Source: a virus
IMG/VR virus record: IMGVR_UViG_3300034020_000631
Location: 1-36,453 of that record
Reading direction: 5' to 3' (one strand)
Length of the DNA: 36,453 bases
Shown here: positions 7,909 through 33,700 of the stretch, piece by piece
Position numbering within the stretch: position 1 is the stretch's first letter
Layout of the letters: every line of letters begins with the position of its first letter
Position numbers and translations under genes: made by a program
The notes under the pieces: model-generated
The model's input: only the letters and a program-made list of their open reading frames with translations
Told to the model about the DNA's origin: nothing
Databases searched by the model: none

Positions 7909-8009
7909 GCTTTTAATGTGCTTAAAGACCAGGGGAAGTCAAGCGGTACACTAAAAGTGTCAAATATTGGTTTTTGGGGGCTGCAATTTTTTGGAAATCG
8001 AAGAAGTGG

Positions 8010-8084
8010 GGGGTTAGTAAGATACTAATGCAGTGTCAAATATAAAAATAGGGGTTAGTAAGATACTAATGCAGTGTCAAATAT
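8010..8084. repeat. Tandem 34-bp operator-like repeat, two copies
   Basis: Two identical 34-bp copies lie at 8010-8043 and 8051-8084, 41 bp apart, close to four helical turns. Each contains the palindrome TTAGTA-AGA-TACTAA (8014-8028 and 8055-8069), followed ten bases after its centre by CAGTGTCAAAT, a member of the GTGTMAA motif set found throughout this control region. The arrangement fits binding sites for a dimeric regulator controlling the late (minus) promoter, the early (plus) promoter or both. The direction and identity of the regulator are inferred, not shown. Confidence 0.7.
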
Positions 8085-8125
8085 TGGAAAAACTGGGTTT
8101 TGTTATGTGAGATTTGGGTATTCCA

Positions 8126-8183
8126 GGGGGCGGTCATGGGCCAATGGCCGCGTGCCCCCCGGCCCTTCGCGGGCGCGCACGCG
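8126..8183. other. GC-rich structured patch
   Basis: A dense set of overlapping inverted repeats: GGCCA-A-TGGCC at 8139-8149, CGCGTGC (8149-8155) pairing with GCACGCG (8177-8183), and inside it GCCC-TTCGC-GGGC (8162-8174). The surrounding DNA is much richer in A+T. It could be a structured RNA end or a barrier between the divergent transcription units. No U-tract follows on either strand. Confidence 0.4.
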
Positions 8184-8191
8184 TAAACCCT

Positions 8192-8197
8192 TATAAT
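8192..8197 (+). promoter_or_regulatory. Possible -10 element for first early genes
   Basis: A perfect TATAAT lies just after the GC-rich patch and points toward the 100-aa gene. The -35 position (GCGGGC at a 17-bp spacer) does not match, so it would need an activator or be fortuitous. It would give a leader of about 250 nt. Confidence 0.25.
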
Positions 8198-8459
8198 GCT
8201 ATGGCTTTTGTTTTTGTATCGTGTGCGCAAAGGGATATCAAACAGAGCTTATCTTATTGCGCGTTGCATAGGGAACAAGCCTAGCTAGACGACGTCCGGA
8301 ACAAAACATGAACTGCACATTGCAAAGATTTAATGCAGCGATCAAATCAAATACATAGTTTTTTAACCGTGGCCATGCGAAAAAGGTCACGCCGCTGAGG
8401 CGCAAGCGGCGAAGCTCTTTGAAACCCCGACGCGCCAGGGGAACAAGAAAGGCCATATC

Positions 8460-8762
8460 ATGGCTAAGTTGTATCGTGACAACGTGTCTATCGTTCTCAA
8501 TCCGAAAGGCGAAATTGCCCTAAAGAAAAACGAGAAGGGCGCGTTCAGCGCGGCCGATGCGGCAAAGATCGCAAAGAAAATGCGTGAATTGTCGACCAAG
8601 CACAAAGCGCCCATTTCACAATGGGCCATGTTCGTCGCGCCTGGAGCGGATGAATTGCAGCCACCGATTTTGCTGGCGAACAAATTTGGGCAACCTTACT
8701 TAGCTTGGCTTCCGCCAAGCGCTCCCAAGCCCAGCAAAAAAGGCCCCACGATTCTCGCCTAA
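8460..8762 (+). CDS. Hypothetical early protein, 100 aa
   Basis: A basic protein beginning MAKLYRDNVSIVLNPKGEIA, with a Lys/Ala-rich helical part (FSAADAAKIAKKMRELSTKH), then WAMFVAPGADELQPPILLAN and a Pro/Lys-rich tail. The start ATG is preceded by AAAGG seven bases upstream. It is the first rightward gene and is closed by an intrinsic terminator 15 bp after its stop, so it forms its own short unit. Charge and length would fit a DNA-binding or host-takeover protein, but no family is recognised. Confidence 0.7.
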   Translation: MAKLYRDNVSIVLNPKGEIALKKNEKGAFSAADAAKIAKKMRELSTKHKAPISQWAMFVAPGADELQPPILLANKFGQPYLAWLPPSAPKPSKKGPTILA

Positions 8763-8776
8763 CGATCACCAACCCA

Positions 8777-8807
8777 GGGCGAGGCGCAAGCCTCGCCCCT
8801 TTCTTTT
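8777..8807 (+). terminator. Intrinsic terminator
   Basis: A 9-bp perfect stem (GGGCGAGGC with GCCTCGCCC) with a GCAA loop is followed by CTTTCTTTT. This is a good Rho-independent terminator for the 100-aa gene. A partial T-run leaves room for read-through into the 32-aa gene. Confidence 0.8.
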
Positions 8808-8820
8808 CATAGGTGCAACA

Positions 8821-8919
8821 ATGAACGAAATCCTAAGCATCCTCGGCTTTGCTGCAATCGTCGGCTACTGCGTTTACGTCGCGGTAAGAGACATTACCAT
8901 CTGGCATAAGAATGATTAA
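8821..8919 (+). CDS. Small membrane protein, 32 aa
   Basis: The frame reads MNEILSILGFAAIVGYCVYV then AVRDITIWHKND, giving one transmembrane helix (about residues 4-23) and a short charged C-terminus. AGGTG lies six bases before the ATG. It is flanked by two intrinsic terminators, which supports a real expressed unit. Such small single-helix proteins in phage early regions can be host-inhibitory or holin-like, but nothing identifies this one. Confidence 0.5.
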   Translation: MNEILSILGFAAIVGYCVYVAVRDITIWHKND

Positions 8920-8925
8920 GTCACG

Positions 8926-8953
8926 GCAGGCGCGCAAGCGCCTGCTATTTTTT
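8926..8953 (+). terminator. Intrinsic terminator
   Basis: An 8-bp perfect stem (GCAGGCGC with GCGCCTGC), GCAA loop and the tail TATTTTTT lie seven bases after the 32-aa gene. This strong terminator shields the repeat region downstream from transcription out of the early unit. Confidence 0.88.
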
Positions 8954-9075
8954 GTCTTCTCACCATCGGGCACAGGTTGTCGGGGGGTTAGGAGGTTTGT
9001 TGTGCTGCGGTTCCTCACTGCGTTCGGACCATTCGTCGGGGGTTCACGGCTCGTAATTTTACAGATCGCGCGTTT

Positions 9076-9344
9076 AAAAGTGTAAAGTGTAAAATTAAGG
9101 CAGATTTGCCCCAATCATAAAAGTGTAAAACAAAAGTGTCAAGTGTCAAATAAAAGTGTCAAGTGTAAAATTAAGGCAGACCCGCCTTAATCGTAAAAGT
9201 GTAAAGTGTAAAATTAAGGCAGACCTGCCCCAATTCGGAAAGTGTCAAATAAAAGTGTCAAGTGTAAAATTAAGGCAGGTCTGCCCCAATTCGGAAAGTG
9301 TCAAAGATTGGAAAAAAGTGTCAAAGATTGGAAAAAAGTGTCAA
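9076..9344 (+). repeat. Left iteron arm: GTGTMAA repeats, plus orientation
   Basis: Fifteen copies of GTGT(A/C)AA, all on the plus strand, start at 9080, 9087, 9123, 9136, 9143, 9156, 9163, 9199, 9206, 9242, 9255, 9262, 9298, 9318 and 9338. Five occur as pairs 7 bp apart. Four longer 43-44-bp units (9076-9118, 9152-9194, 9195-9238, 9251-9294) add AAATTAAGGCAG and a near-palindrome GGCAG-NN-CTGCC, followed by CCAAT. The last three copies are spaced exactly 20 bp with GATTGGAA between them. This is a protein-binding array, not coding sequence. Confidence 0.85.
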
Positions 9345-9389
9345 GCACAATCTATTTTTTTTCCGGAGGCCCGAAATTCTTTGACATAT

Positions 9390-9468
9390 TTGACACTTTT
9401 TTGTGTAAAAGATTTGACACACAATGTGTCAAATGTTATACACTTTTGACAGTTTTAAAAAGTGTCAA
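9390..9468. repeat. Mixed-orientation GTGTMAA cluster
   Basis: In this stretch the motif occurs on both strands: TTGACAC at 9390-9396 and 9414-9420, and GTGTMAA at 9403-9409, 9426-9432 and 9462-9468. Inverted neighbours such as TTTGACAC-ACAAT-GTGTCAAA at 9413-9433 form a perfect 8-bp-arm palindrome, so a dimer could bind here. It marks the point where the arms change direction. Confidence 0.75.
9414..9442 (+). promoter_or_regulatory. Promoter-like element inside the array
   Basis: TTGACA (9414-9419), a 17-bp spacer and TATACA (9437-9442) read forward. The -35 box is itself part of an iteron motif and the spacer carries the opposing one, so a protein bound to the repeats would cover the promoter. 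It could make a primer RNA or an autoregulated early transcript. It is weaker than the 9882 promoter. Confidence 0.4.
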
Positions 9469-9510
9469 ATATCCAGTGTTTTCAAGGTAAAACCAGCAGG
9501 TTGGACATTT

Positions 9511-9660
9511 TTTCTTAGTATATTAGAATCTACTTAATATAAATAATATAAGAAAAAACACTACCCTTTCCCGATACAAAAAAATTTTGGCCGATAGGAT
9601 TTTGGTCCTACCCCCCACTTTACACTTCTGTAGAACTTATTATTTTTCCCCACTTAGATT
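9511..9660. other. A+T-rich stretch between repeat arms
   Basis: These 150 bases contain long A+T runs (such as TTAATATAAATAATATAAG at about 9533-9551 and CTTATTATTTTT near 9637) and one minus-oriented TTTACAC at 9619-9625. It lies between the two oppositely oriented arms and would be the natural melting element of an origin. A 5-bp inverted repeat (TAGGA...TCCTA) sits at about 9596-9610. No gene is visible. Confidence 0.5.
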
Positions 9661-9729
9661 ATATTATCTACCTTATCCCTCGCAAACCCTTGCGCCCCAA
9701 CGACTTCAGCTTTTTGACATGTAAAATCT

Positions 9730-9888
9730 TTGACACTTTTACAATCTAAATAATCTAAATTTGACACTTTTGCCCCTACCTTTTACACTTCTATGTCTAC
9801 TTTTGACACTTTTACCCCTACCTTTTACACTTTTCGCCATTACTTTTGCCTTTTACACTTTTCCAAGCCCCCGTAGGGGGCTTGACAC
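9730..9888 (-). repeat. Right iteron arm: GTGTMAA repeats, minus orientation
   Basis: Seven copies of the motif, all on the minus strand, read TTGACAC or TTTACAC on the plus strand at 9730, 9761, 9782, 9803, 9824, 9852 and 9882. Those at 9761-9824 are exactly 21 bp apart (two helical turns). A longer unit containing CCCCTACCTTTTACACTT repeats with a 42-bp shift. The last copy forms the -35 box of the strong forward promoter. Confidence 0.8.
9865..9883. other. Hairpin overlapping promoter -35
   Basis: AAGCCCCC-GTA-GGGGGCTT is a perfect 8-bp inverted repeat whose right arm runs into the TTGACA of the 9882 promoter. No T-run follows on either strand, so it is more likely a protein-binding or boundary element than a terminator. 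Confidence 0.45.
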
Positions 9889-9910
9889 CGCCGCCGGACC
9901 GTGGTACGCT
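9882..9910 (+). promoter_or_regulatory. Main forward promoter for the early/replication operon
   Basis: TTGACA (9882-9887), a 17-bp GC-rich spacer and TACGCT (9905-9910) followed by AGCC read forward. This resembles alphaproteobacterial housekeeping promoters, where the -35 is strong and the -10 is GC-rich with GCTA (family knowledge). Transcription would start near 9917, and the leader has a small GGAC-TTCG-GTCC hairpin (9924-9935). The first gene begins at 9986. The -35 overlaps the last repeat of the right arm, which suggests regulation by the repeat-binding protein. Confidence 0.6.
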
Positions 9911-13402: not shown

Positions 13403-13420
13403 AAACAACGGAGAGAACAT

Positions 13421-14566
13421 ATGTCTAAACAAAAACTACACGCTGATGTCGCCGAGCGTATATCTCGTGCTAAGACACAGCTAGTTATGAAATATCCGTT
13501 TTTCGGTATGTTGGCTCTCAACATGTCGTTTCGGATTGACGACAATCTCAACCCGCCAACTGCCGCGACTAACGGCAAAGAGATTATTTTCCACCCCGGT
13601 TTCATCCGCACACTGAACGACGCAGAAGTTTTGTTTCTCGTTGGGCATGAGGTTCTTCACCCGGTGCTGGAGCATATTTTGCGGCGTGGTTCGCGTGACC
13701 CATTCAAGTGGAACATTGCAGCTGACGTTGTCGTGAACCAAATCCTCACCGACGAACGGGTTGGTAAGATGCCGGATCACGGTGTTTTAGATGGCGATTT
13801 GTTTCGCAGAGGCGGCGGCGTTGTCGAAACTATCTATTCGCTGTTGCCGCAAGAAGACAACGAAGGCCGACAACCAGGGGATGGGCAACCCGGTTCATCT
13901 CTAGATAACTGCATGGATGCCCCTGGCGATGCGTCGCAACAGGCTGAATTGCAGGCAGACCTTAAGACCATGCTAGCACAAGCCGCACAGGTCGCTAAGA
14001 TGCGGGGCAACCTTAGTGAGGGTCTTAAACGCTTTGTCGAGGATACGCTTAACCCGCGCGTTGACTGGCGTGATGTCCTACACCGCTTTGTGGAGAAAGC
14101 CCGCACTGACGAACGCTCATTCTCGCGTGTCAATCGCCGCTTTTATTCGATGGGTCTGTGCATGCCGAGCGTTAGCGGTGAGGAAATGGGAGAACTTGTG
14201 GTCGCTGTGGATTGCTCCGGCTCTATTGGAAGCAATGAGCTTAATCAGTTTGCGACTGAGATTCGAACTATCCACCAGGATAGTAAACCAAGGGCGATTC
14301 ACGTTGTTTATTTCGACAGCAAGGTCTGCCATTACGACAAGTTTGACCAACAGGAGGACCCTTTTATTAAGCCGCACGGTGGCGGCGGAACGGCGTTCTC
14401 CCCTGTCATGCGGTATATCGAGGAGCACGAAATTACGCCGGTCGCGTGCGTATTCCTAACCGATTTGTGCTGTAGCGACTTCGGACCCCAACCAGATTAC
14501 CCAGTGTTATGGGTGTCCACACATTCCGACAAAGCCCCATGGGGCGAAGTTGTGATGATGAAATAA
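13421..14566 (+). CDS. HExxH metallopeptidase-VWA fusion (DUF2201-like)
   Basis: A 381-residue protein with two parts. The N-terminal half carries HEVLH at residues 76-80 within VLFLVGHEVLHPVLEH, a zinc-peptidase motif as in DUF2201_N. The C-terminal half is a VWA-like domain with a full metal-ion site: D264, S266 and S268 (DCSGS), T324 in GGGGTAF and D348 in FLTDLCC. A Gly/Gln/Asp-rich linker lies at about 145-175. VWA partners of MoxR ATPases bind clients, and the fused peptidase could process them. Whether it is proteolytically active is not known. It directly follows the DUF3150-like gene, with CGGAGAGAAC before the ATG. Confidence 0.85.
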   Translation: MSKQKLHADVAERISRAKTQLVMKYPFFGMLALNMSFRIDDNLNPPTAATNGKEIIFHPGFIRTLNDAEVLFLVGHEVLHPVLEHILRRGSRDPFKWNIAADVVVNQILTDERVGKMPDHGVLDGDLFRRGGGVVETIYSLLPQEDNEGRQPGDGQPGSSLDNCMDAPGDASQQAELQADLKTMLAQAAQVAKMRGNLSEGLKRFVEDTLNPRVDWRDVLHRFVEKARTDERSFSRVNRRFYSMGLCMPSVSGEEMGELVVAVDCSGSIGSNELNQFATEIRTIHQDSKPRAIHVVYFDSKVCHYDKFDQQEDPFIKPHGGGGTAFSPVMRYIEEHEITPVACVFLTDLCCSDFGPQPDYPVLWVSTHSDKAPWGEVVMMK

Positions 14567-14583: not shown

Positions 14584-15327
14584 ATGACTGTTGTTGTTAT
14601 GTCGAACGAACTTATCCGCGCCGTTGTAGAAAATATCAATCGCCGGTTCCACGACGAGCATCTTAAAGTAGCAAAACCAGAAATCCCTCTACCTCAGTCT
14701 GCCAAAGAAGTGATGCGTTTACTTTATGGAGATAACGCAAAGAAAGTAGAGGAGGTTTACAACAACGAGCTTCTAAAAGACTTTTTTGCTACCGCAGTAT
14801 CTATTTATATTTGCGATGCGGCGTTTGAGCGCAAGTCTCATTTCCACGCTACCAACATCATAAAAAACATAAACGATAGAATTCCTATCCCAACCGGAAT
14901 TACAAGAACTACAATAACGACTCCGTCGATTCTATCACCTTATATCTCCAAGTACCAAATAGACGGGTCTTCGTGGCGGAGCGAAATGTCAGTTAGGCTT
15001 TTCGTTCTTAACGTACACGAATGGACTCCAATTCTAGAACCATGCCACGAATACGCTGATGCTCGTTTAGAAATCGATGGAAGACAGCAAGCGAGCGTTA
15101 GCGCAGCAGAAAAGATTATGCGCAGCCATCGGACGCTTAGTCCTGTTCTGCGTGAGTGGCCATCGCTGTGGGAGTTTCTGCCAGAGTACGCAAAGAACAA
15201 ACATGCACAGAAGTCACAGCGCAAATCGTCAGACTCAAGCATGCCAGCTATCGACGAGAGCGACAAAGCCGCTCTTGAACAGTTGGATTTGTCTGTTGCC
15301 GTCCAGAAGATGAAGGATAATGCCTGA
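14584..15327 (+). CDS. Hypothetical protein, 247 aa, after the VWA gene
   Basis: It starts MTVVVMSNELIRAVVENINR with AAAGGAG eight bases before the ATG at 14584. A longer in-frame start would lie inside the VWA gene. The N-terminal half is helical, the middle has beta character (residues about 100-160), and the end has SPVLREWPSLWEFLPEYAKN followed by a charged tail. A C-terminal 'WPxLWEFLP' pattern is seen in several uncharacterised phage proteins. I cannot assign a family. Its stop shares bases with the next start (TGATG), so the two unknowns are probably expressed together with the MoxR-VWA genes. Confidence 0.7.
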   Translation: MTVVVMSNELIRAVVENINRRFHDEHLKVAKPEIPLPQSAKEVMRLLYGDNAKKVEEVYNNELLKDFFATAVSIYICDAAFERKSHFHATNIIKNINDRIPIPTGITRTTITTPSILSPYISKYQIDGSSWRSEMSVRLFVLNVHEWTPILEPCHEYADARLEIDGRQQASVSAAEKIMRSHRTLSPVLREWPSLWEFLPEYAKNKHAQKSQRKSSDSSMPAIDESDKAALEQLDLSVAVQKMKDNA

Positions 15328-16417: not shown

Positions 16418-16439
16418 ATGAGCGTAATTGTTTGGGACG
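16418..16439 (+). repeat. 22-bp duplicated gene start, copy 2
   Basis: Second copy of the block at 16085-16106. Here the encoded MSVIVWDG is followed by sequence that matches the rest of the proteasome-like family, so this is probably the source copy. Confidence 0.9.
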
Positions 16440-16864
16440 GACAGGTTCTTGTAACCGATAGAGCCGTGAATGATGGGACAAACCGTTGGGTGCTTCCTAA
16501 GATGTGGAAGGTTCGGGATGGGGTGCTCGCCGCCATCGGTCCTACCTTCGATGTGAACCGCTTCCTGGGTTGGTACAACAGCGACGGTCCTACGGCGGAG
16601 AAGTTTCCTACTTACAACGGGAGAGTAAATGCTGTGCTTGTTCGGGAGAAATCCCTGTTTCGATTTGACCATTTAGGCAATCAGGTCGAGCATGGTACCA
16701 ATAAGCTCGCCTTGGGAGAAGGTCGCGACTTTGCCTATGGGGCTCTAGCCCTGGGGCATACGGCCATCGAAGCCGTCAAGGCGGCGAACATGTATTCAAT
16801 AGTATGTGGTCTAGGTTTTCACGCTTACGACGCACAAACTGACCAGTGGCATGAAGGGGAATGA
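16418..16864 (+). CDS. HslV/proteasome-like Ntn hydrolase
   Basis: A 148-residue protein starting MSVIVWDGQVLVTDRAVNDG, with K28 in LPKMWKVRDGVLAAIG, VLVREKSLFRFDHLG, GEGRDFAYGALALGHTAIEA and a C-terminal VCGLGF. This is the compact pattern of phage proteins related to HslV and proteasome beta subunits (established fold signature). In the family the nucleophile is the residue after Met, usually Thr. Here it would be Ser2 after Met removal, with D14 and K28 as the likely partners. It may be an active peptidase or a non-proteolytic relative. It lies among small genes before the DNA polymerase. Substrate and any ATPase partner are unknown, though a MoxR ATPase is encoded nearby. Confidence 0.75.
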   Translation: MSVIVWDGQVLVTDRAVNDGTNRWVLPKMWKVRDGVLAAIGPTFDVNRFLGWYNSDGPTAEKFPTYNGRVNAVLVREKSLFRFDHLGNQVEHGTNKLALGEGRDFAYGALALGHTAIEAVKAANMYSIVCGLGFHAYDAQTDQWHEGE

Positions 16865-23580: not shown

Positions 23581-24603
23581 ATGACTAATGCTATTGTCCC
23601 GACCAACGTCAAAATCCCTGCCCACCTCGCTAAGTACGCGCAACACAACAGCGGTCTTAGCAGTGCAATTTCCGCTGGTATCGGTGGTAGTGGGCCAGAG
23701 TACCCACGCATTTCGATTAAGGGCTCGCGCTTCCGCATTGTTGAAGAAGGTCAAGAACATGTGCTCCCCGAGACCACGTTGAACGTGGTTATCGTAGGCG
23801 CTAATCCGAACCTCTCGAAAGCGTGGTATGCAAAGGCGTGGAACCCAGACGACGAACCTGCCGGGCCGGATTGCTATTCACTCAACGGCCTTTCGCCCCA
23901 TCTGGAATCCCAAAATCCGCAGTCCGATAAGTGTTCTATGTGCAAACAAAACCAGTGGGGTAGCAAAATTACCCCCGCTGGTCAGAAGATCAAAGCTTGC
24001 TCTGACAAAAAGCGTCTCGCTGTCGTTGCGGCCAACGATCCGAGCGGGCCAGTTTATTTGCTGGAAGTGACTCCCGCTGCGCTTAAAGGTCTGTCGCAGT
24101 ACCAACGTGAGTTGACTACGCGCGGTATTATGTTGGAGATTGTGACGACGGCGGTGAGCTTCGATACTGACGCGAGCTTTCCAAAACTAAAGTTCGCGTT
24201 TGCCGGGTTTAACTCTGAAGAAACCCAGGAAGCTGTGACTCCGCTGTTTGGTTCTGAGTCAGTGATGGAGATTACTGGTGAAGCCCAGCCCGAGCGCTTG
24301 GAGGTCGCGCCGATTCAACCAGCCAAGCCGGTCTTGGTCCGCGCGACAAACAAACCTGCACCTAATCCTGCACCTGTTGAAGAGACGGTTGAAGAGGTTG
24401 AAGTTGAGGTTATCCCGCCAAAGGTAGCAACAAAGGCCCGTGGTTTTGGAGGCGCTGCGGCCAACGGTCAAGTTGATCCTACTCCCGCGAAGGGCGGTGC
24501 GGCTTCGGCGAAGAAGGTCGCTAAGGAACCCGCCCCGGTTGCGTCTGCTAGTCTCGCAGATGAGATCGCTTCGCTGATCGGAGACATGGGCGATGACGAC
24601 TAA
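23581..24603 (+). CDS. Phage single-stranded DNA-binding protein (SSB-like)
   Basis: A 340-residue protein. The N-terminal about 230 residues are the ordered part, with PRISIKGSRFRIVEEG, a Cys-containing segment (CYSLNG..., CSMCKQNQWGSKITPAG, KACSDKKRLAVVAAND) and LLEVTPAALKGLSQYQRELT. Residues about 235-320 are a Pro/Ala/Glu/Lys-rich flexible linker. The protein ends in an acidic tip, LIGDMGDDD, as in SSB proteins that recruit partners. This architecture is typical of the unusual phage SSBs encoded with family A polymerases and DUF927 helicases (recalled). GAGGAA precedes the ATG. It overlaps the next gene by 11 bases. Confidence 0.8.
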   Translation: MTNAIVPTNVKIPAHLAKYAQHNSGLSSAISAGIGGSGPEYPRISIKGSRFRIVEEGQEHVLPETTLNVVIVGANPNLSKAWYAKAWNPDDEPAGPDCYSLNGLSPHLESQNPQSDKCSMCKQNQWGSKITPAGQKIKACSDKKRLAVVAANDPSGPVYLLEVTPAALKGLSQYQRELTTRGIMLEIVTTAVSFDTDASFPKLKFAFAGFNSEETQEAVTPLFGSESVMEITGEAQPERLEVAPIQPAKPVLVRATNKPAPNPAPVEETVEEVEVEVIPPKVATKARGFGGAAANGQVDPTPAKGGAASAKKVAKEPAPVASASLADEIASLIGDMGDDD

Positions 24604-24877
24604 GCTAGACTTCAATAAAGTAGAAGCGCTACGCAAGCATATGTTGTTGTCGGTAAGGGGTATGGCGCAGATTCTGCGAACGTCACGGCAGAATTATTAT
24701 AACTGGAAATCTGCGAGGTCATACCCTACGCCGAATGCAGAAGCGGCATTAAAGTCTCGCATCAAGAAGATGTTAACCGTGGTCAATGAACATAGTTGGC
24801 CAACAGCTGATATCATCATGGCGACACACAGCCAACGAGTCAAAAAGCTGCTTGCGCTACTAGAAACGGACTCATAA
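24593..24877 (+). CDS. Helix-turn-helix DNA-binding protein, 94 aa
   Basis: A basic protein (MTTKLDFNKVEALRKHMLLS...) with an XRE/Cro-like HTH: LSVRGMAQILRTSRQNYYNW at residues about 19-38, followed by KSARSYPTPNAEAALKSRIK. The C-terminal half is helical. The segment 'SRQNYYNWKSAR...P' is common in phage regulators. It starts inside the SSB gene, so it is made at the same time, and is followed by a UUCG hairpin. It may repress early genes or switch on late ones by binding the 8010-8084 palindromes (inference, no direct evidence). Confidence 0.8.
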   Translation: MTTKLDFNKVEALRKHMLLSVRGMAQILRTSRQNYYNWKSARSYPTPNAEAALKSRIKKMLTVVNEHSWPTADIIMATHSQRVKKLLALLETDS

Positions 24878-24917: not shown

Positions 24918-27737
24918 ATGAATACGCTGGAGTTTTTGCGGCGTGTTCTGCCCGAGAGTGGCTGGTATTGCGTAGGCGTTGCGCTACCGAACAGTAAGTT
25001 TAAGCACAAATTTTCTCAGTCGCTTGAAGAAGTGGCTGAGTATTCGAAGCGAATTAGTGCTGGTGGCTACGATGTTTACTACGCAGTTTCATCTTTCAAA
25101 GATGCAAACTCTCGTCGGCAACACAACGTACAAGAAACTAGAATTTTCTTTATAGACGTAGACGTTGGCAAAGACAGAAACTCATATGCCAACAAGCGCG
25201 AGGCTCTTACAGCCGTCTTAGAATTTGTGCAGCGTAACCAACTGCCAAAGCCCATGATCGTATCATCGGGCAAAGGCTTTCATATTTACTGGGCGCTAAA
25301 GACTCCGCTTTCGTTTTACGAGTGGAAGCCACGCGCAGAAGCGCTTAAAGCGCTCGCCATTGCGCAAGGACTGGTTATTGACCCAGCGGTGCCGGGCGAC
25401 AGCGCTCGCGTCCTGCGGGCTCCTGGGACGCTCCACGTTGGTTCTGGTTCTACAGTTAAGGTTGTGGTGCCTGCTGAGGCAATTGACCTGAGCGAGTTTA
25501 ATATCGCGCCTGCACCGCCGATGGCTAATAAACCTCGCGGTCTTCTGTCCAACTTAAAAGTTAGTAGCGATTTTCCGCCAGCGGTCGCCGATATTGTTGC
25601 ATCAAAGTGCAAACAAATTAATTGGGCGATCAACAATCAAAGCGAAGTCGAAGAACCGTTTTGGTACGCGCTGCTTGGTATCGCCGCGTTCACACAAAAT
25701 CCAGAAGAGACCGCTATTGCGTGGAGCAGCAACCACCCTGATTTCTCCGAACAACAAACAATCAATAAGCTAGAGCAATGGAAAGCCAAAGCAGATGGGC
25801 CTTCGACGTGCGCGCGTTTTGAAGCGCTGCGCCCCAGTGGCTGCAAAGGTTGTCCGTTCCAGGGGAAGATAACTTCTCCATGCCGTCTTGGTGCGCAGTT
25901 TCAAGAGGTTGGTACGGACCCAGACGCTCCAGATACAAGCGTAACTAGTGTGCCAGTGCCGAGACCTTTTAAGCGGACAGCGCGAGGCATAGCCTACACC
26001 ATAGAAGATACTGATGTGGACGTATGTCCGTTCGATATTTATCCGGTCAGCTATGGTAGGGATGAAGGGTTAGGGTATGAAGTCGTTCGTTTCAATTGGA
26101 AACGCCCCCATGTAGGGTGGACTCCTCTTGTAATGCGGCAGGCTTTGCTAACTGAAGGGCATAGAGATTTCGCTGCTGCGTGCGCAGATCAGGGGATTGT
26201 GTTACCAAGCAAAAAACAAACTGAGGTTTTTCAACTCATGCTTCGTGCATACATGGAAGAACTAAAAAAGATTCGTAGTCTTACTAACCTCTATACAACT
26301 ATGGGGTGGAAGGAAGACCACGATCAGTTTGTTATTGGAGAATACGTAATTCGCCCTGAGGGGCAAAGCGTTATTGAAGAGCGGTCCACGCTGGCTGCTA
26401 ACGCTTCACGTAACAGCGGAGATATGTTTGGCGTTTCCGGATCACTCGACACGTGGGTTAACGCGACATCTATCCTAGAGAAGGCCGTAATGCCATGGCA
26501 TATGTTTGCTCTCGGTGTTGGGTTCAGCGCACCGCTCTATGCATTCGGCGGTCTTAAGGGGCTGACCATCTCTCTTTACGGTGAGACTGGCGGAGGCAAG
26601 ACGCTCATCCAATACTGGATTCAGAGCATCTATGGTAACCCAGATCGCCTGCACTTTGCCGCTAAGTACACGCAGAACACGCTGTTCAGCCGTCTCGGTA
26701 GCTACTCAAATTTGCCTATGACTATCGACGAAGCTACCATGCTGCAAGATAAAGAGGTGGGTGATTTCCTTTACTGGGTTAGCCAAGGGCGGGATAAGGC
26801 GCGGTTGAACCGCAATTCAGAAGAACGCGACGCAAAGACATGGGCAACGCCGGTCGTGATCTCTACTAATAAATCTATCCAAGCAAAACTTATCTCTTCT
26901 GGTCTGGACACGGACGCGCAGATGGCGCGGCTTTTGGAAGTGACTATCCCGCCACACACGTTGTTCTCCAAGGACAGCACGGTCGGTAAGAAGATTTACC
27001 ACCATCTAATGAAGAACTACGGCTATGCTGGACGTGCGTTTTTGCGCCATCTTGTAGGGCTTGGACCTGATAAGTTGCGCACACTTGTCGAAGAACATGC
27101 GAAAGAGTTCTATAAAACTTACAACGCCAAGTTCGCAGGACATGAACGTTTTTGGGAACAGGCTGTTATTCTTGCAGACCTTGGGTCTAAGATTGCGCAA
27201 GACTTGAGCTTGATTAAGTACGATTACACTGCTGGTACACGATGGGTGTTAGACCAGTTGGGCGTGCTGCGCGACTCAATGAACGAGATTAAGCTAGACG
27301 CTTTTGACCTGCTCGGGCAGTATCTTAACGAAGTTGCTAACGCGACAGTGACCGTTACCCAGACTGCAAACAATCCTCCTATGTGCGACCACACACGGCT
27401 ACCTCGCGGAGATGTTCGTGCGCGCATCCAGCTGTGGAGAAAAGACGGATCGACAAACTTTACTCGCGGTGTGCTGTTAGTAGACCGGACCCACCTGCGG
27501 CGCTGGCTCTCCAGCGGAGGGCATGACTACAAGGCGTTTCAAAAAGAAATTAGTGTTAGCAATGCTGATGCATCGCCTCGCGGGTTTAAGGGATATCTCG
27601 CTAAGGACACGCCGATCAAGTTACCACAATCTTATGTTTTGGGTTTTGATCTAGCGCATCCCAAGCTTGAAGGTATGCTCAACGATATCAGCGAGGCTTA
27701 TGACCAGCGGGCGTTCTCTAAACTCAAACTTGTTTAG
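24918..27737 (+). CDS. Primase-helicase (AEP-type primase fused to DUF927-like ATPase)
   Basis: A 939-residue protein. The N-terminal primase/polymerase part shows D80-V-D82 (FFIDVDVG) and H122 in SSGKGFHIYW, the archaeo-eukaryotic primase signature. A Cys cluster near residues 298-325 (CARFEALRPSGCKGCPFQGK, then SPC) may bind zinc. The C-terminal part is a DUF927-like helicase ATPase with Walker A GETGGGKT (K561), Walker B TIDEA (D604/E605) and sensor VVISTNKSIQ. It should prime and unwind at the fork, and could recognise the origin-like repeats. The ATG at 24918 follows a hairpin with GAGG upstream. Its stop overlaps the stop of the opposing giant gene. Confidence 0.88.
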   Translation: MNTLEFLRRVLPESGWYCVGVALPNSKFKHKFSQSLEEVAEYSKRISAGGYDVYYAVSSFKDANSRRQHNVQETRIFFIDVDVGKDRNSYANKREALTAVLEFVQRNQLPKPMIVSSGKGFHIYWALKTPLSFYEWKPRAEALKALAIAQGLVIDPAVPGDSARVLRAPGTLHVGSGSTVKVVVPAEAIDLSEFNIAPAPPMANKPRGLLSNLKVSSDFPPAVADIVASKCKQINWAINNQSEVEEPFWYALLGIAAFTQNPEETAIAWSSNHPDFSEQQTINKLEQWKAKADGPSTCARFEALRPSGCKGCPFQGKITSPCRLGAQFQEVGTDPDAPDTSVTSVPVPRPFKRTARGIAYTIEDTDVDVCPFDIYPVSYGRDEGLGYEVVRFNWKRPHVGWTPLVMRQALLTEGHRDFAAACADQGIVLPSKKQTEVFQLMLRAYMEELKKIRSLTNLYTTMGWKEDHDQFVIGEYVIRPEGQSVIEERSTLAANASRNSGDMFGVSGSLDTWVNATSILEKAVMPWHMFALGVGFSAPLYAFGGLKGLTISLYGETGGGKTLIQYWIQSIYGNPDRLHFAAKYTQNTLFSRLGSYSNLPMTIDEATMLQDKEVGDFLYWVSQGRDKARLNRNSEERDAKTWATPVVISTNKSIQAKLISSGLDTDAQMARLLEVTIPPHTLFSKDSTVGKKIYHHLMKNYGYAGRAFLRHLVGLGPDKLRTLVEEHAKEFYKTYNAKFAGHERFWEQAVILADLGSKIAQDLSLIKYDYTAGTRWVLDQLGVLRDSMNEIKLDAFDLLGQYLNEVANATVTVTQTANNPPMCDHTRLPRGDVRARIQLWRKDGSTNFTRGVLLVDRTHLRRWLSSGGHDYKAFQKEISVSNADASPRGFKGYLAKDTPIKLPQSYVLGFDLAHPKLEGMLNDISEAYDQRAFSKLKLV

Positions 27738-30700
27738 TCGACGCCGTAGGCGGCTGAAAGTTGCTCGACGGTTGGGCGAACAGTCAGACTAGATGCATCA
27801 TGGTAGCGAGCCACGGTGGTCTGTCTGGCCGCTTCGCCTGCCCGGCGAGCGGAGGTAAGGAAGTCGCGGATTTCAAACTCAGTGCCGCGGACGCTTTCGT
27901 TCCACTCATTTACGCGGTCCACGACGCGCCGCATAGTGGCAGTGTCGTTGCGTCGATAGGCAACTGCATACTGCTGTACAAAGTGGCGGCGGATTTCTTT
28001 GGCGTAGTTATCTGTACGGCGAGACATACGAACAACATCGTTATGGAACGTTGCCTCTGATGGGAAGAAGCCCAACAGCCTGAACGCCAGAACGTGGGCT
28101 GGCAGGTTCTCAGAAATAAGCTGTCCTTGTGCGTTGCTGATGGACCCGTCGCTCATAAAGATCAGCGTGTCACTCAGCGCGCGCGTACCTGCGGATGGGA
28201 ACTGGCGAAGCACGTCGCTAAGCGGCCCATTTGCACCGAGTGCGAAGTAATCCATTACGGTTCCTGCAAACTTAGCTGTGCTATCAATCTGGCTAGCCAC
28301 AGGGCCGATGGTGTCGATAACCGTTTGGTAGGGATCGGCCCCCGCTAGCAACGCCCCAGAGAAGGGGATCATGTCGCCCATACCGATCCGGCTCGAAATG
28401 GTAGCTCCGGTGTGCAAGTCCAACACACCGCGCAAGAGGACAGGTCCGAGCCCCGGCATAAGAGCGTCGCCCAGCCGAGCAATCTCAGCCTCGACACTGC
28501 CCATCGGAATCTTAAACTTTTGGGCAAGTGTGTCGATCAAGTCCATCAGGTCTTCCGCAAACGGAATAGCTTTAAGGCCGCCGAGCAGCACGAGTAGGGC
28601 GAGCAGTTTGATTTGCTCGCTTCGCGGAAGATGGCGAACCAGCTGCACCATCGTAACTTTAAATTGCTGGTAAACGTAAGCAATCGATCCGAGCGGGCCA
28701 CGGAACAATCCCGGTCGGTTATAGAGAGCGAAGTCACCGAGAGTAAATCTTAGCGTTGTTTCGGTATGGGACATCACGTCTAAATAATCTTGTGAGTCCT
28801 GATTGGAAAACGCTGCCGGGTCTGCGCCCGCCGCAATCGCTCTATCTCTATAAAGCCGGTACGCCGCTAGGGAGGTCGCGGCTCGCGATACCGCTTCAAG
28901 TTTATTGAAGAAGAACATATATCCTTTGGATGCGGCGCGAAGCGTTCTATCTCCGATTCCGTTATAGGTCGTACCCATCAACCCATAAGTTTGCGCAGCT
29001 TGCAGCTGCCCGCGGTCACTCATATCAAGCAGCATCCGTGCTTCGGCCTCAGTGAGGCCGTACTTCGTCCACTCTTTTCTGGCGACCATCTCCTGCATTT
29101 TTTCACGTTCGTCGATAAGCCCGGCCATCTTAGAGATGTTACCAGTAGCGCGACCTAGTTCAGTGGCCGTCTTCATATCCCCAAACCCGCCGCCGCGTCC
29201 GGTTTGGTAGTTAAACCCAGCGAGATATGGGGCGACTGCAAGCGGCAGTGAAACAAGGTTGAGAAGACCGGAGGCTACAGAGCCGCCCAGCTGCGTAACC
29301 ACGGTAAACGTGCGGAGGCCAGAGCCAATCTTACCGAGCCACGTATCAATATCATCGCCCGCGACATCTACGTTCTGTGCATAAAGCTCCAAGAGCTTAG
29401 CCGCGTGGGCACGGCCACGGTTGCCCTGCCCGAGAGTTTCGATCCGCTGCTTGCCCCTGGTCGTCGTAATGGTAAAGGTGCGTCCTACGGGGGCCATATG
29501 GCGCAGCATGTAGGCGTACTGCACAAGCTCTTGTTCAGCCACGGTGCGTTGTGCGGCATCGGCTGCTGCGTCGAACCGGGCCTGAAGGTCTCTAAGATAC
29601 TCAAAGTTACCAAACCAGTTATTGCCGGTTTCGTTGTTCATAATATCGTCGATGTCAGAAACATAAATCCGACGTGCGGAGATACGCGACATAGATTCCA
29701 AATATGGGTCAGCGCCCAAACGGATAACGTCTTTATCGAAGCCGGGCGTAGCGGAACGTTCTAGCGAAGCGCGGATGCGCGAACCGGTTTCGGTAATCTT
29801 CTCGATTAGGTTAGCCCGCTCTCTTGGCGACAACGAAATATTAAGTGTGTCCAAAAGGCGGATAACTTCTGAGAAATTAATGCGCTCACTAAATGAGCGA
29901 CCCTCAAAGGCTTCGTCAAACGACGCTTGAAGAATAACATTTACATCTTGGTTTTCGCTGTCTTTGACTTTCCACACTCGGTTACCAAAAACTTCGTTGA
30001 TTTGATTAGTGATAGACCGTGCGCCGGGCTCACCCGTAGCGGTATCTTCCGAGTTGTTCATCAAAAGATAGGGCAACATCTGCTGGAAGTCTTCGTGCAG
30101 ACGAATTATTTGCGGGCTATCTGAATTTTCCGTACCAGGAACGATAGCTCTAACCCGCACTTGGAATTTACCTTCGCGGCGCAGCGGAACGTAATGGCCA
30201 GCGATGTTGCGCTTGGCTGTTTTCTGTTGTTCCTGCACCGAAGCAAACGCAGCCGCGCTCCGTTGAATAACGGTCAGCACTTTTTTCTGTTGGTCAAGGT
30301 TCATCCCCATTTGGTTTACTTGTTCGAGGGCATCCCGACTCAACAAGTCTTTTAGATTTCTGTAGCGAGCCGTCTTCTTAAACTCGTGGATGAAGTCATC
30401 GTCTTCCAACGCTCGACGGCGGGTGTTTGCCTGTTCTGGCGTAATGGCACCAGCTGCAAGTTCAGCATCGATTGCGGCTTCTTTAGCAGCGCGATCTCTA
30501 GCGTACTGCGCATCAGAAACAGTGCGGTCCCAATCGTCGATCTTAGATGTAGAGTGTAGCGCGCGTAGAACGTTACGAAGCCAGATATCGGCTTCTTCCG
30601 CATTCTCTTCTTGGAACGAGTTATAGGCTTCGCGGATACGTCTAAACCATTCTCGTTGCGCTTGTGTTGGCGGCGTGCGGAAGCGGGCCAGGATGCGATT

Positions 30701-33700
30701 GATTCCACTTTCACTAAGCTTGCTGTAGTGTGCAACTTCGGCTAGAACGCGGTCTTTTACGGCTTCAAACATACCGTCCATATATTCTTTATAGACAATG
30801 TAGGCTTGATCGTCGGCTTTTACGTTACGCTGGTAGGTACCGGCTCGCTCGCCATTGGCAAAGTTCCAGTCGAAGCCGCGCGAAAACTCTTCGGGGGTAA
30901 CAATTCCTTGCCTCTTAAGAGCTTCAAAGGCTGCCGGATCAATCGTCACAACGCCGCGGTCGCTGATAATCAGGAAGTCAGGAAGCTTATTAAGGTCTTC
31001 CTCCTGCACCGTGGGTAGCTTATACAGAGATGCGTATGCTAGCAACTCGCTAGCGATTTCGATTTGCTCGTCGGGAACACCTCTACCCAGCCCGAACAGC
31101 GGTGCGTTGCGAGCCGTGCCTGTCATTTGCTCATACTTACCAAGCAAGTTCTTAGAAGTTTCTCCGATGTTTCGGAATACTTTCAGAAGTTCAGACAATC
31201 CGTAGCTGCGGGTCGCAATGTTGTCCGTGGTTTGGATCGTTTCAAGTGCCTGAGCAATAGCACGTTTACCCCCACGTGCCAGACCTGCCGCGATCTTCCC
31301 CATATTACCAGCATTGATGCGCGTCGGCGCACCGAACACGCCGGGCTGAGCAAACGCCGTAGCTGCGGGAGAGCCAGTGTAGGGGATGCTGGCGCGGAAC
31401 GCTCCATTAGTCAGGTCGGCGTCGGTCTCTCTGAGAATTTCCTGCCACGTACCTGGGGGCGGCGGATCATTAGACCGCACATAAATACGGGCCTGCTTAA
31501 TCCAGTGGCGCGCAAGAGCGTCGTCCGTAAGAACGCCAAGCTTTCCAAGAAACTCTTTAGTCTTGTCCCAAATACGTGCAACAATATTCGTTTCGAGAAC
31601 AGCTGCTCGATCTGCCAAAGCTTCTTCGATCATGTAGGCTTTACGAGTAGCCTCAGGCAAATCTTTATAAGTGTTCTGGTAAATATCGAGTCGAGCGTCT
31701 ACTTCGTTACGGACCCACGGGGTGTTGTCGTAGATTTGGTTCATAAAATCTACATATGTTTGGGGAGCACCTTTATCCTTTTTAAGTGCGTTCTTGATAT
31801 TTGTGAAAGCCAGTTGCAGACCATAGTGGCCGTGCAGTTCGTGGGCCATGGCGAAGCGAAGCTGCTTTGCTGTTTTGATATTGTATGCAGCTACAATAAC
31901 GACAGGCGCAGACTGCCGGGCTTCCACTGATTGGCGGAGAGCATTACGCGTAGGCTCTTCTCTGGAGAGAATTTCTGCGATGCGAACACTGGTTGTGTCG
32001 CCGCCTCCTTTAGTAGACGGAACGTAAAACGCAGCTTCGATCTTATTGATATCGAGTTGGTTTTCGATACCGGGGAATCGAGCTTTCAGTTCTTCTGGCG
32101 AGTTAGCAACAAACGTCTGCACGCCGTCGCGAGCAGCGGCACCTACGCTAGCGCGGTTCATAAACTTAGTAGCTTCAAGTTTAGCCACGTCGGGTTTGAT
32201 TACCGTAACTGGTCGTCCGCTTTCGCCAATAAACTCTTGCTTCCTTGGCCGCTTGACTACGGGTTTCTTCAGCTGCGAGTCGCCTGCTTCGGGCTGACGC
32301 GTGCTTTCTTGTTCGGGAGTATTCTCAATACCCACGACTTCTGTGTCGAACGAACCAAAAACGTTTTCGGTCGAGATGGGCGGCTGCCCCTGAATTTGTG
32401 CAAACCGTTGGCGCGCTTGGTCTTCCGGTAAAATAGCTTGATCGCTAGGCGCTTGTGGCCCCTCTTGTATTTGTTGCCAACGAGATGGCGTTTCCTGTTC
32501 CGCAGGTGGCTCTTCTCTAACGCCGCGCAAATCAGCAACAGGTTTCCTACCTTCGATAGTTGTTTGGGCACCCGCAGCTTCTCGCCGCCGCTCAAGTATT
32601 CTTTCGGCTTCGTTTTCGACGTCGTCGAGCCAATCGTTAAGGTATTCTTTGTACCTCGCTGCAAAGCTAGTGTCGGTTTTTAGTTGCTTTGAAAGACCTT
32701 TTTCTGTTTTTAGGTCGAACTCTTTAAGGAGTGCTTCATTTCTTCTGTACGTTGTAAGGTTATCATTCAACGTTTTATTGTCTGGATTGTTTCTTAATCT
32801 AGCTTGCGTGTTAGAAATTTCTTGTCTGACAGCAACAAGCTGACGCTCCACCATCTCTTTAGGAGTGGGGATTGCATCTGGGTTAACGTTAGGACCAACG
32901 GTCTCGCCTTCGCGTTTGCGGATCGGCGCAAGCTGAATTTGAAGTTCGCTAAGCCGACTGCGAATACGCTTCTTAACATCTTCAATAGTTTCCGTAGGCG
33001 GCGCAGGTTCAGGCGCAGCCGCAAGCGTAGGTTCGGGCGCGGGCGCAGGGGTACGCCGGGGGGTAACAGGGCCAGCACGCACAGGTCCTCGCTGCGCAGG
33101 CGCAGGAGGCGGCGTAGGTTCGGGCTCAGGCGCACTGTCACTAAAGTCTGGAGACAGTGAGTCAAGCCATTCGGCTACCGTTGCGTTTGGTAGGAACTTT
33201 TCGTTCTCTCCTACAAAAAATCGACTTAGTGCATCTGCCAGTCTCTTAAAGAATTTTTCGACAACCGTAAGCGGCTTTCTTTGAGTGGTTGCCCATCTGG
33301 AAACTTGATCTGCAAACCATTCTGAAAACGATTTCCAGTAACGTTGCTCGGCGTCAGGAAGCTTTTCTACTTTCGTATCTTCTGGAACTTTCGTCGCTCT
33401 GCCTTGCTTATAAGCACGAAGACTTTCTACTAGCTCTCGCGCAGTTTTATTTTCTGTTTGCGCTACCCATTTTCTATGCTCTTCCATGATTTTATTTTTT
33501 GTGGCTGAGTCTGCGTTTTCAAACGCACGCTTTTCCACAATATGCCCAAGTTCATGAGCAAGTATTTCAAGCTGCCTAGCTGTATTATCAACCGGTCTGA
33601 TGGCGATATAGTACTCGTCATCTTTTAACCGACGTGCGGAACCCACTGTTGTTTGAGATTCGAGCGCAGCAGACCCAAGTTTCTTATAGACCCCTGCCAT

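Follow-up and report, generated by a model that had tools for sequence, protein, structure and literature searches.

Among described replication systems, those closest to the locus considered here are SaPI Rep (SaPIBov1 Rep, PDB 8tch) and SCCmec Cch/Cch2, in which the initiator is a self-loading DUF927-related MCM-like helicase, and SaPI Rep reads its iteron origin through its C-terminal domain (PMC7581432). Fusions of AEP and DUF927 are known from mobile elements (PMC5862659), in which the PrimPol-DUF927 combination is widespread, and in the literature searched we found no mapped origin for a phage of the PrimPol-DUF927 type. In pRN1 and the Bordetella phages BIP-1 and BPP-1 one protein is likewise both archaeo-eukaryotic primase and helicase, and in pRN1 a gene for a small DNA-binding repressor (orf56) stands in the same operon, much as a small helix-turn-helix (HTH) gene precedes the primase-helicase here, but the helicase is SF3 and the origin proposed for them lacks iterons, being a stem-loop located downstream of the gene (PMC4234260). 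The alpha protein of phage P4 (described in PMC4234260) is also a multifunctional primase-helicase and binds repeats at the P4 origin, although its primase is of the TOPRIM type, whereas the N-terminal domain of the present protein is PrimPol-like by Pfam and by Foldseek (S-2L PrimPol, RepB'). RSF1010 has a separate iteron-binding protein, helicase and AEP-type primase (RepC, RepA and RepB', the last a Foldseek match of our protein), but these are three proteins and initiation is at ssi stem-loops (PMC4234260), none of which was identified in this phage. In the V. cholerae PLE modules, as here, the genomic place is constant, and the PLE origin changes together with the DNA-binding part of the initiator, RepA; that initiator is of the RepA_N type, the iterons are three of ~30 bp and the proteins are unrelated (PMC8263062).

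The locus lies in a 36,453-bp window (the whole stretch of DNA analysed) from an uncultured virus; it is part of a phage genome, and the relatives of that phage measure 52-60 kb and in many cases close as circles. A DNA similarity search against known phages gave no match. TerS, TerL, portal and capsid genes run leftward on the left of a repeat array, genes for an ATPase, an HNH protein, a PolA-type polymerase, an exonuclease, a helicase, a Gam-like protein, an HTH protein and the primase-helicase run rightward on its right, and the array itself occupies non-coding DNA at the junction of these leftward late and rightward early operons. The early region also carries an HslV-like peptidase gene (16418-16864; phrog_1040), and 27734-36385 on the minus strand encodes a probable internal virion protein of 2,883 aa, one segment of which is endolysin-like (phrog_938). 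We consider that 9029-9910 is probably the replication origin of the phage, a non-coding iteron origin at the late/early operon junction that a phage initiator would read. Two genes provide the candidate binders:

24593-24877, plus strand: small HTH protein, 94 aa, lambda-repressor-like, directly upstream of the primase-helicase; candidate binder of the class-A repeats described below
24918-27737, plus strand: primase-helicase, 939 aa, PrimPol plus DUF927; proposed initiator

An earlier note on this DNA had recognised no Rep-like initiator, which proved wrong because the helicase part of the 24918 product is homologous to SaPIBov1 Rep, an iteron-binding initiator, and to SCCmec Cch. The product matches Pfam DUF927 at 2.8e-26; a profile over residues ~510-795 matches SaPIBov1 Rep (8tch, 1.2e-14) and Cch (5dgk, 2.3e-13), and in a Foldseek search its AlphaFold model (pLDDT 83, pTM 0.45) retrieved the same two proteins first and then PrimPol domains including those of S-2L PrimPol and RSF1010 RepB'. 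Conservation against remote relatives is lowest in its C-terminal 145 aa (15% identity), but neighbouring segments are also low. The array shares with SaPI-type origins the multiple short iterons, but the SaPI origin is directly downstream of rep, whereas here the array (9.0-9.9 kb) and the gene (24.9-27.7 kb) are 15 kb apart and the 3' end of the 24918 ORF (27737) overlaps the 27734-36385 ORF by coordinates, with no intergenic space. Further differences from SaPI are the fusion of the helicase to an N-terminal PrimPol, the use of ~30 iterons of two related classes and the separate small HTH gene preceding that of the initiator. By analogy the phage system would work like SaPI Rep and its iterons while lacking one defining feature, an origin beside rep, and having its initiator fused to a PrimPol. 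The ‘new initiator-origin pair’ suggested earlier is thus new as a variant, but the pair itself is of a known, SaPI Rep-iteron-like kind.

The product of 24593 has a lambda-repressor-like fold in its predicted model (pLDDT 87.5), and its homologue lies directly before the primase-helicase gene in those close relatives that have the region. Among the binders proposed earlier, this protein and the primase-helicase stand as conserved candidates, but the winged-helix protein of 19722 and the HTH protein of 22724 were rejected, neither giving a tblastn match in any relative searched.

The repeat motif is GTGTMAA. In the window there are 37 copies (dinucleotide shuffles of the window give 9.0, maximum 17), of which 31 lie within 7957-9888, in agreement with the roughly 30 noted before, and 9061-9900 holds 28 against 0.4 (maximum 3) in local shuffles. 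The earlier note's orientation counts for the two arms and the mixed middle were exact; the copies are distributed as follows:

7957-8080, plus strand: GTGTCAA at 7957, 8033 and 8074, three additional sites close upstream of the leftward operon of TerS and TerL
9080-9344, plus strand: left iteron arm, 15 GTGTMAA copies, all plus, partly in ~43-bp and 20-bp tandem units
9390-9468, both strands: five GTGTMAA copies of mixed orientation between the arms (9390 minus, 9403 plus, 9414 minus, 9426 plus, 9462 plus)
9619-9888, minus strand: right iteron arm, eight GTGTMAA copies, all minus, with 21-bp spacing at 9761-9824

A single switch from plus to minus accounts for 26 of the 28 copies (5000 label shuffles: mean 18.9, maximum 25), a comparison that exaggerates the symmetry of the arms because copies arising by tandem duplication are not independent. 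Units of about 43, 20 and 21 bp are repeated within the arms, and near-identical relatives keep the array with a different number of complete units (a 43-bp unit more or a 21-bp unit less), which indicates that the arms grew partly by tandem duplication. The left arm shows no helical phasing; the modest ~10-bp phasing of the right arm (R=0.62, 21 pairs) stems from its 21-bp unit. As in iteron origins the repeats lie beside or around an A+T-rich region, but the core supposed between the arms is only slightly richer (66-69% A+T at 9345-9618, 62-64% in the arms); in relatives A+T is ~65%, falling to ~50%. Searches of the array region found no known RNA or tRNA. Upstream of the TerS operon, a ~34-bp repeat (GGGGTTAGTAAGATACTAATGCAGTGTCAAATAT) with the motif at its end occurs twice within 8010-8082.

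About 25 relatives carry a non-coding array at the same terminase/early-gene junction, built from two related motifs, class A (TGTMAAGTT) and class B (TAGATWRTT), which were obtained by Markov k-mer enrichment; an EM search of 12-bp width had drifted to A+T-rich noise. GTGTMAA of the window is a class-A variant, the A/C wobble being common to both. Spellings vary among relatives for class A (TGTAAAGTT, TGTATAGTT, TGTAAGGTT and TGTCAAGTT) as for class B (TAGATTATT, TAGATTGTT and TAGATAGTT). In 16 genomes the array contains 6.4 class-A and 5.4 class-B sites per kb, the rest of the genome 0.16 and 0.13 per kb, respectively, and in the interval from TerS to the array class A is clearly enriched (1.9/kb) but class B is not. 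Inverted arms belong to class B: in 40 dereplicated loci 215 of 241 class-B sites fit one minus-to-plus switch, read from left to right (null 176.7, sd 4.3), around a central gap with a median of 120 bp. Class A forms no clean inverted arms family-wide in the relatives, whereas the arms of the window use class A where those of the relatives use class B. Since B is confined to the flanks of the core and A reaches toward the TerS side, a division of labour suggests itself in which B would serve loading and A would serve regulation through the HTH protein.

The window has a candidate counterpart of the relatives' core and a few class-B sites:

9526-9663, no strand assigned: candidate origin core with an AATCTA half-site (class B; 9527, minus), ACCCTTT (9563-9569) and TAGATTAT (9655, plus), ~128 bp apart
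9741-9760, minus strand: two class-B sites (ACAATCTAAATAATCTAA) resembling the relatives' left B arm

An HMM of the family core gave exactly one plus-strand match per locus in 80 loci including 20 genomes, and in the 20 genomes listed the match lies between TerS and the early genes; no significant match was found in G007, G016, G019, G026 and G029. For the window the best-placed match (9526-9624) is marginal (E=0.047) although its position is right, and AATCTA (9527), ACCCTTT (9563) and TAGATTAT (9655) keep the family spacing, so that homology of the window core to the family core appears to be one of layout more than of sequence. G029 (L229) has a 24-bp tandem unit with TTGGCATAT 16 times and TTGGATTAC nine times, and its array sits between TerS and a homologue of p8460 (a small gene, 8460-8762 in the window, whose family is found left of the array in many relatives), not right of the left-edge element; in G016 the TerS-ATPase interval holds a GTCAAGTT array and, close to the ATPase gene, a distinct series of 17 CGGCGACGG repeats. 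The p8460 gene is inverted in G029 and right of the array in L247, and G005 has p8460-like small proteins on both sides of its array (13415-13684 and ~14940-15236). A DnaA-dependent origin was rejected: the only DnaA box (TTATNCACA) in the window is on the minus strand near 29.4 kb, outside the array, and 56 kb of array sequence from 48 relatives contained one.

The edges of the array carry further signals:

8925-8955, plus strand: intrinsic terminator, just left of the element, for the small genes that run rightward
8973-8992, plus strand: second copy of the element, GTCGGGGGG, left of the copy at 9029-9054
9029-9054, plus strand: left-edge element, window version of CCATACGTCGGGGGNNTATAGCTCGC with 5 mismatches, which marks the left edge of the array in relatives
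9882-9910, plus strand: probable early promoter as read from the sequence (TTGACA, 17 nt, TACGCT), with a weak −10

The near-invariant CCATACGTCGGGGGNNTATAGCTCGC element borders the array on its left in over 60 related contigs (L244-L320), sometimes duplicated ~55 bp apart, and is possibly a priming, nick or packaging site. Of 80 contigs with an exact match to the near-invariant element CCATACGTCGGGGG, 67 have it directly left of the array, with position and orientation unchanged; in the remaining contigs no genes like those of the window lie close by, and these matches are probably due to chance. That TerS, encoded ~1 kb away, recognises the array or the CCATACGTCGGGGG element as a packaging site (pac or cos) would fit the fixed position 1-2 kb upstream of TerS and the strong conservation of this usually single-copy element. 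We nevertheless regard it as very unlikely, as TerS stays 59-66% identical though the array motif changes completely (that of G029, with its TTGGCATAT array, is 61% identical to the window TerS), several contigs close into circles at positions scattered relative to the element, and dozens of short repeats are atypical for pac or cos. The CCATACGTCGGGGG element alone could still be a packaging site. A cos site at the GTCGGGGG element was rejected: some contigs end nearby, but the other contig ends and the circle junctions are dispersed, and a second copy is present in several genomes.

The right edge bears on a different possibility, that the array is a hub of transcription control, in which the HTH protein or host RNA polymerase would act on the motifs, as operators or tandem promoter elements, to switch the diverging operons. 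TTGACA and TTTACA resemble −35 boxes, the 21-bp spacing generates TTGACA-N17-TACACT, promoter-like sites number 9 against 3.3 expected, the interval from TerS to the array has an elevated density of class-A sites as well (1.9/kb), and a protein with a predicted lambda-repressor-like fold is at hand. The −35 likeness is, however, not conserved, as arrays of class B (TAGATTATT), TTGGCATAT, AATATTC and TGTAGCA occupy the same place; ~30 sites are more than an operator needs, with no enrichment elsewhere in the genome, and the ~120-bp core is conserved independently of any promoter. As the main function of the array such a hub seems unlikely, but since the last GTGTMAA copy of the window, at the array's right edge, would be the −35 box of the probable early promoter, it may hold alongside an origin.

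Remote relatives, whose primase-helicases are 23-32% identical, retain an array in the syntenic position but with unrelated motifs, some with inverted arms. G027 and G031 carry palindromic AATATTC (15 and 19 copies), G034 carries TAATGTT (five plus followed by three minus), and in G035 TGTGTCA is mainly plus on the left and mainly minus on the right of a T-tract. The circular 60.5-kb E. coli record pSTEC648_2 has a TGTAGCA array (three plus followed by three minus), and Pseudomonas phage Rollin has a palindromic AAAAGGTAG array inside a large unannotated gap. Judged by these comparisons the genomic address of the array is conserved while its motif code changes, and because relatives keep such an array at the same place despite changed repeat spelling, it is most likely where copying of the phage DNA starts. 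The gene before the primase-helicase encodes a diverged HTH protein in G035 (3.7e-5; 7.6e-7) and pSTEC648_2 (1.4e-7) and an unrelated 83-aa ORF in the AATATTC phages (G027, G031), so motif type and the upstream neighbour of the primase-helicase change together at long range. In Mantel tests of motif-protein covariation within the close group (20 genomes; 13 proteins and 6 domains), Gam gave p=0.014 of 19 tests, which is not credible after correction.

pSTEC648_2 (CP061838.1; L399, L400), filed as a ‘plasmid’, looks like a phage-plasmid and carries a holin, a lysozyme, a large virion protein, ParB and a DUF927 primase-helicase; it also has the same origin-like layout. A circular relative with an annotated ParB might suggest that the array is a centromere-like partition site (a parS array) of a phage persisting as a plasmid. 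We think this extremely improbable, as neither ParA nor ParB was recognised among the window proteins searched (the window being a fragment), and inverted arms around a core together with a GC-skew minimum better match an origin.

In 14 of 15 close relatives the cumulative GC skew reaches its minimum no more than ~7.4 kb from the array, and in 13 of them the distance is at most 4 kb; in pSTEC648_2 the minimum is at 9806, ~0.4 kb from the array. Gene orientation diverges at the minimum and the skew follows gene orientation here, and correction for gene strand weakens the signal: the minimum is within 10% of the half-genome in 12 of 16 genomes uncorrected but in 8 of 16 after correction (KS p = 9e-10 and 1e-5, respectively). 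The skew check called for by the earlier note is thus supportive of an origin, not decisive.

The array, its synteny, the inverted class-B layout, the GC-skew minimum and the homology of the initiator support the origin, and the candidate with inverted iteron arms put forward before is backed by the same place, inverted-arm layout and skew minimum in the relatives. Against it count the marginal HMM match of the window core (E=0.047), class A in the arms and the 15 kb to the primase-helicase. Binding, melting, bidirectional replication and the pairing of protein and motif we infer, and they could proceed as follows. The PrimPol-DUF927 protein, perhaps together with the upstream-encoded small HTH protein or by way of it, would bind the facing arms, load an MCM-like helicase on each side of the core and melt it; the same protein would then also prime, and two forks would depart in opposite directions with the phage PolA-type polymerase. 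Class-B sites would bracket the core, and class-A sites, which also reach toward the TerS promoter region, may double as operators.

It is possible, although we hold it rather doubtful, that a widespread lineage of uncultured phages uses a two-code origin, in which B loads the PrimPol-DUF927 initiator at the melting core and A is bound by the lambda-repressor-like protein of the adjacent gene, coupling firing to the late/early switch; address and geometry would be kept while the code was repeatedly replaced, and in the window the regulator's repeat would have taken over the inverted arms. The analysis has located a candidate origin, dozens of natural variants of which occupy the same place, and has identified two conserved candidate binders; the pairing of initiator and iteron can be tested in the relatives known from E. 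coli and Pseudomonas aeruginosa. Together they may offer a natural series in which to follow the joint change of recognition code in an initiator and its origin.
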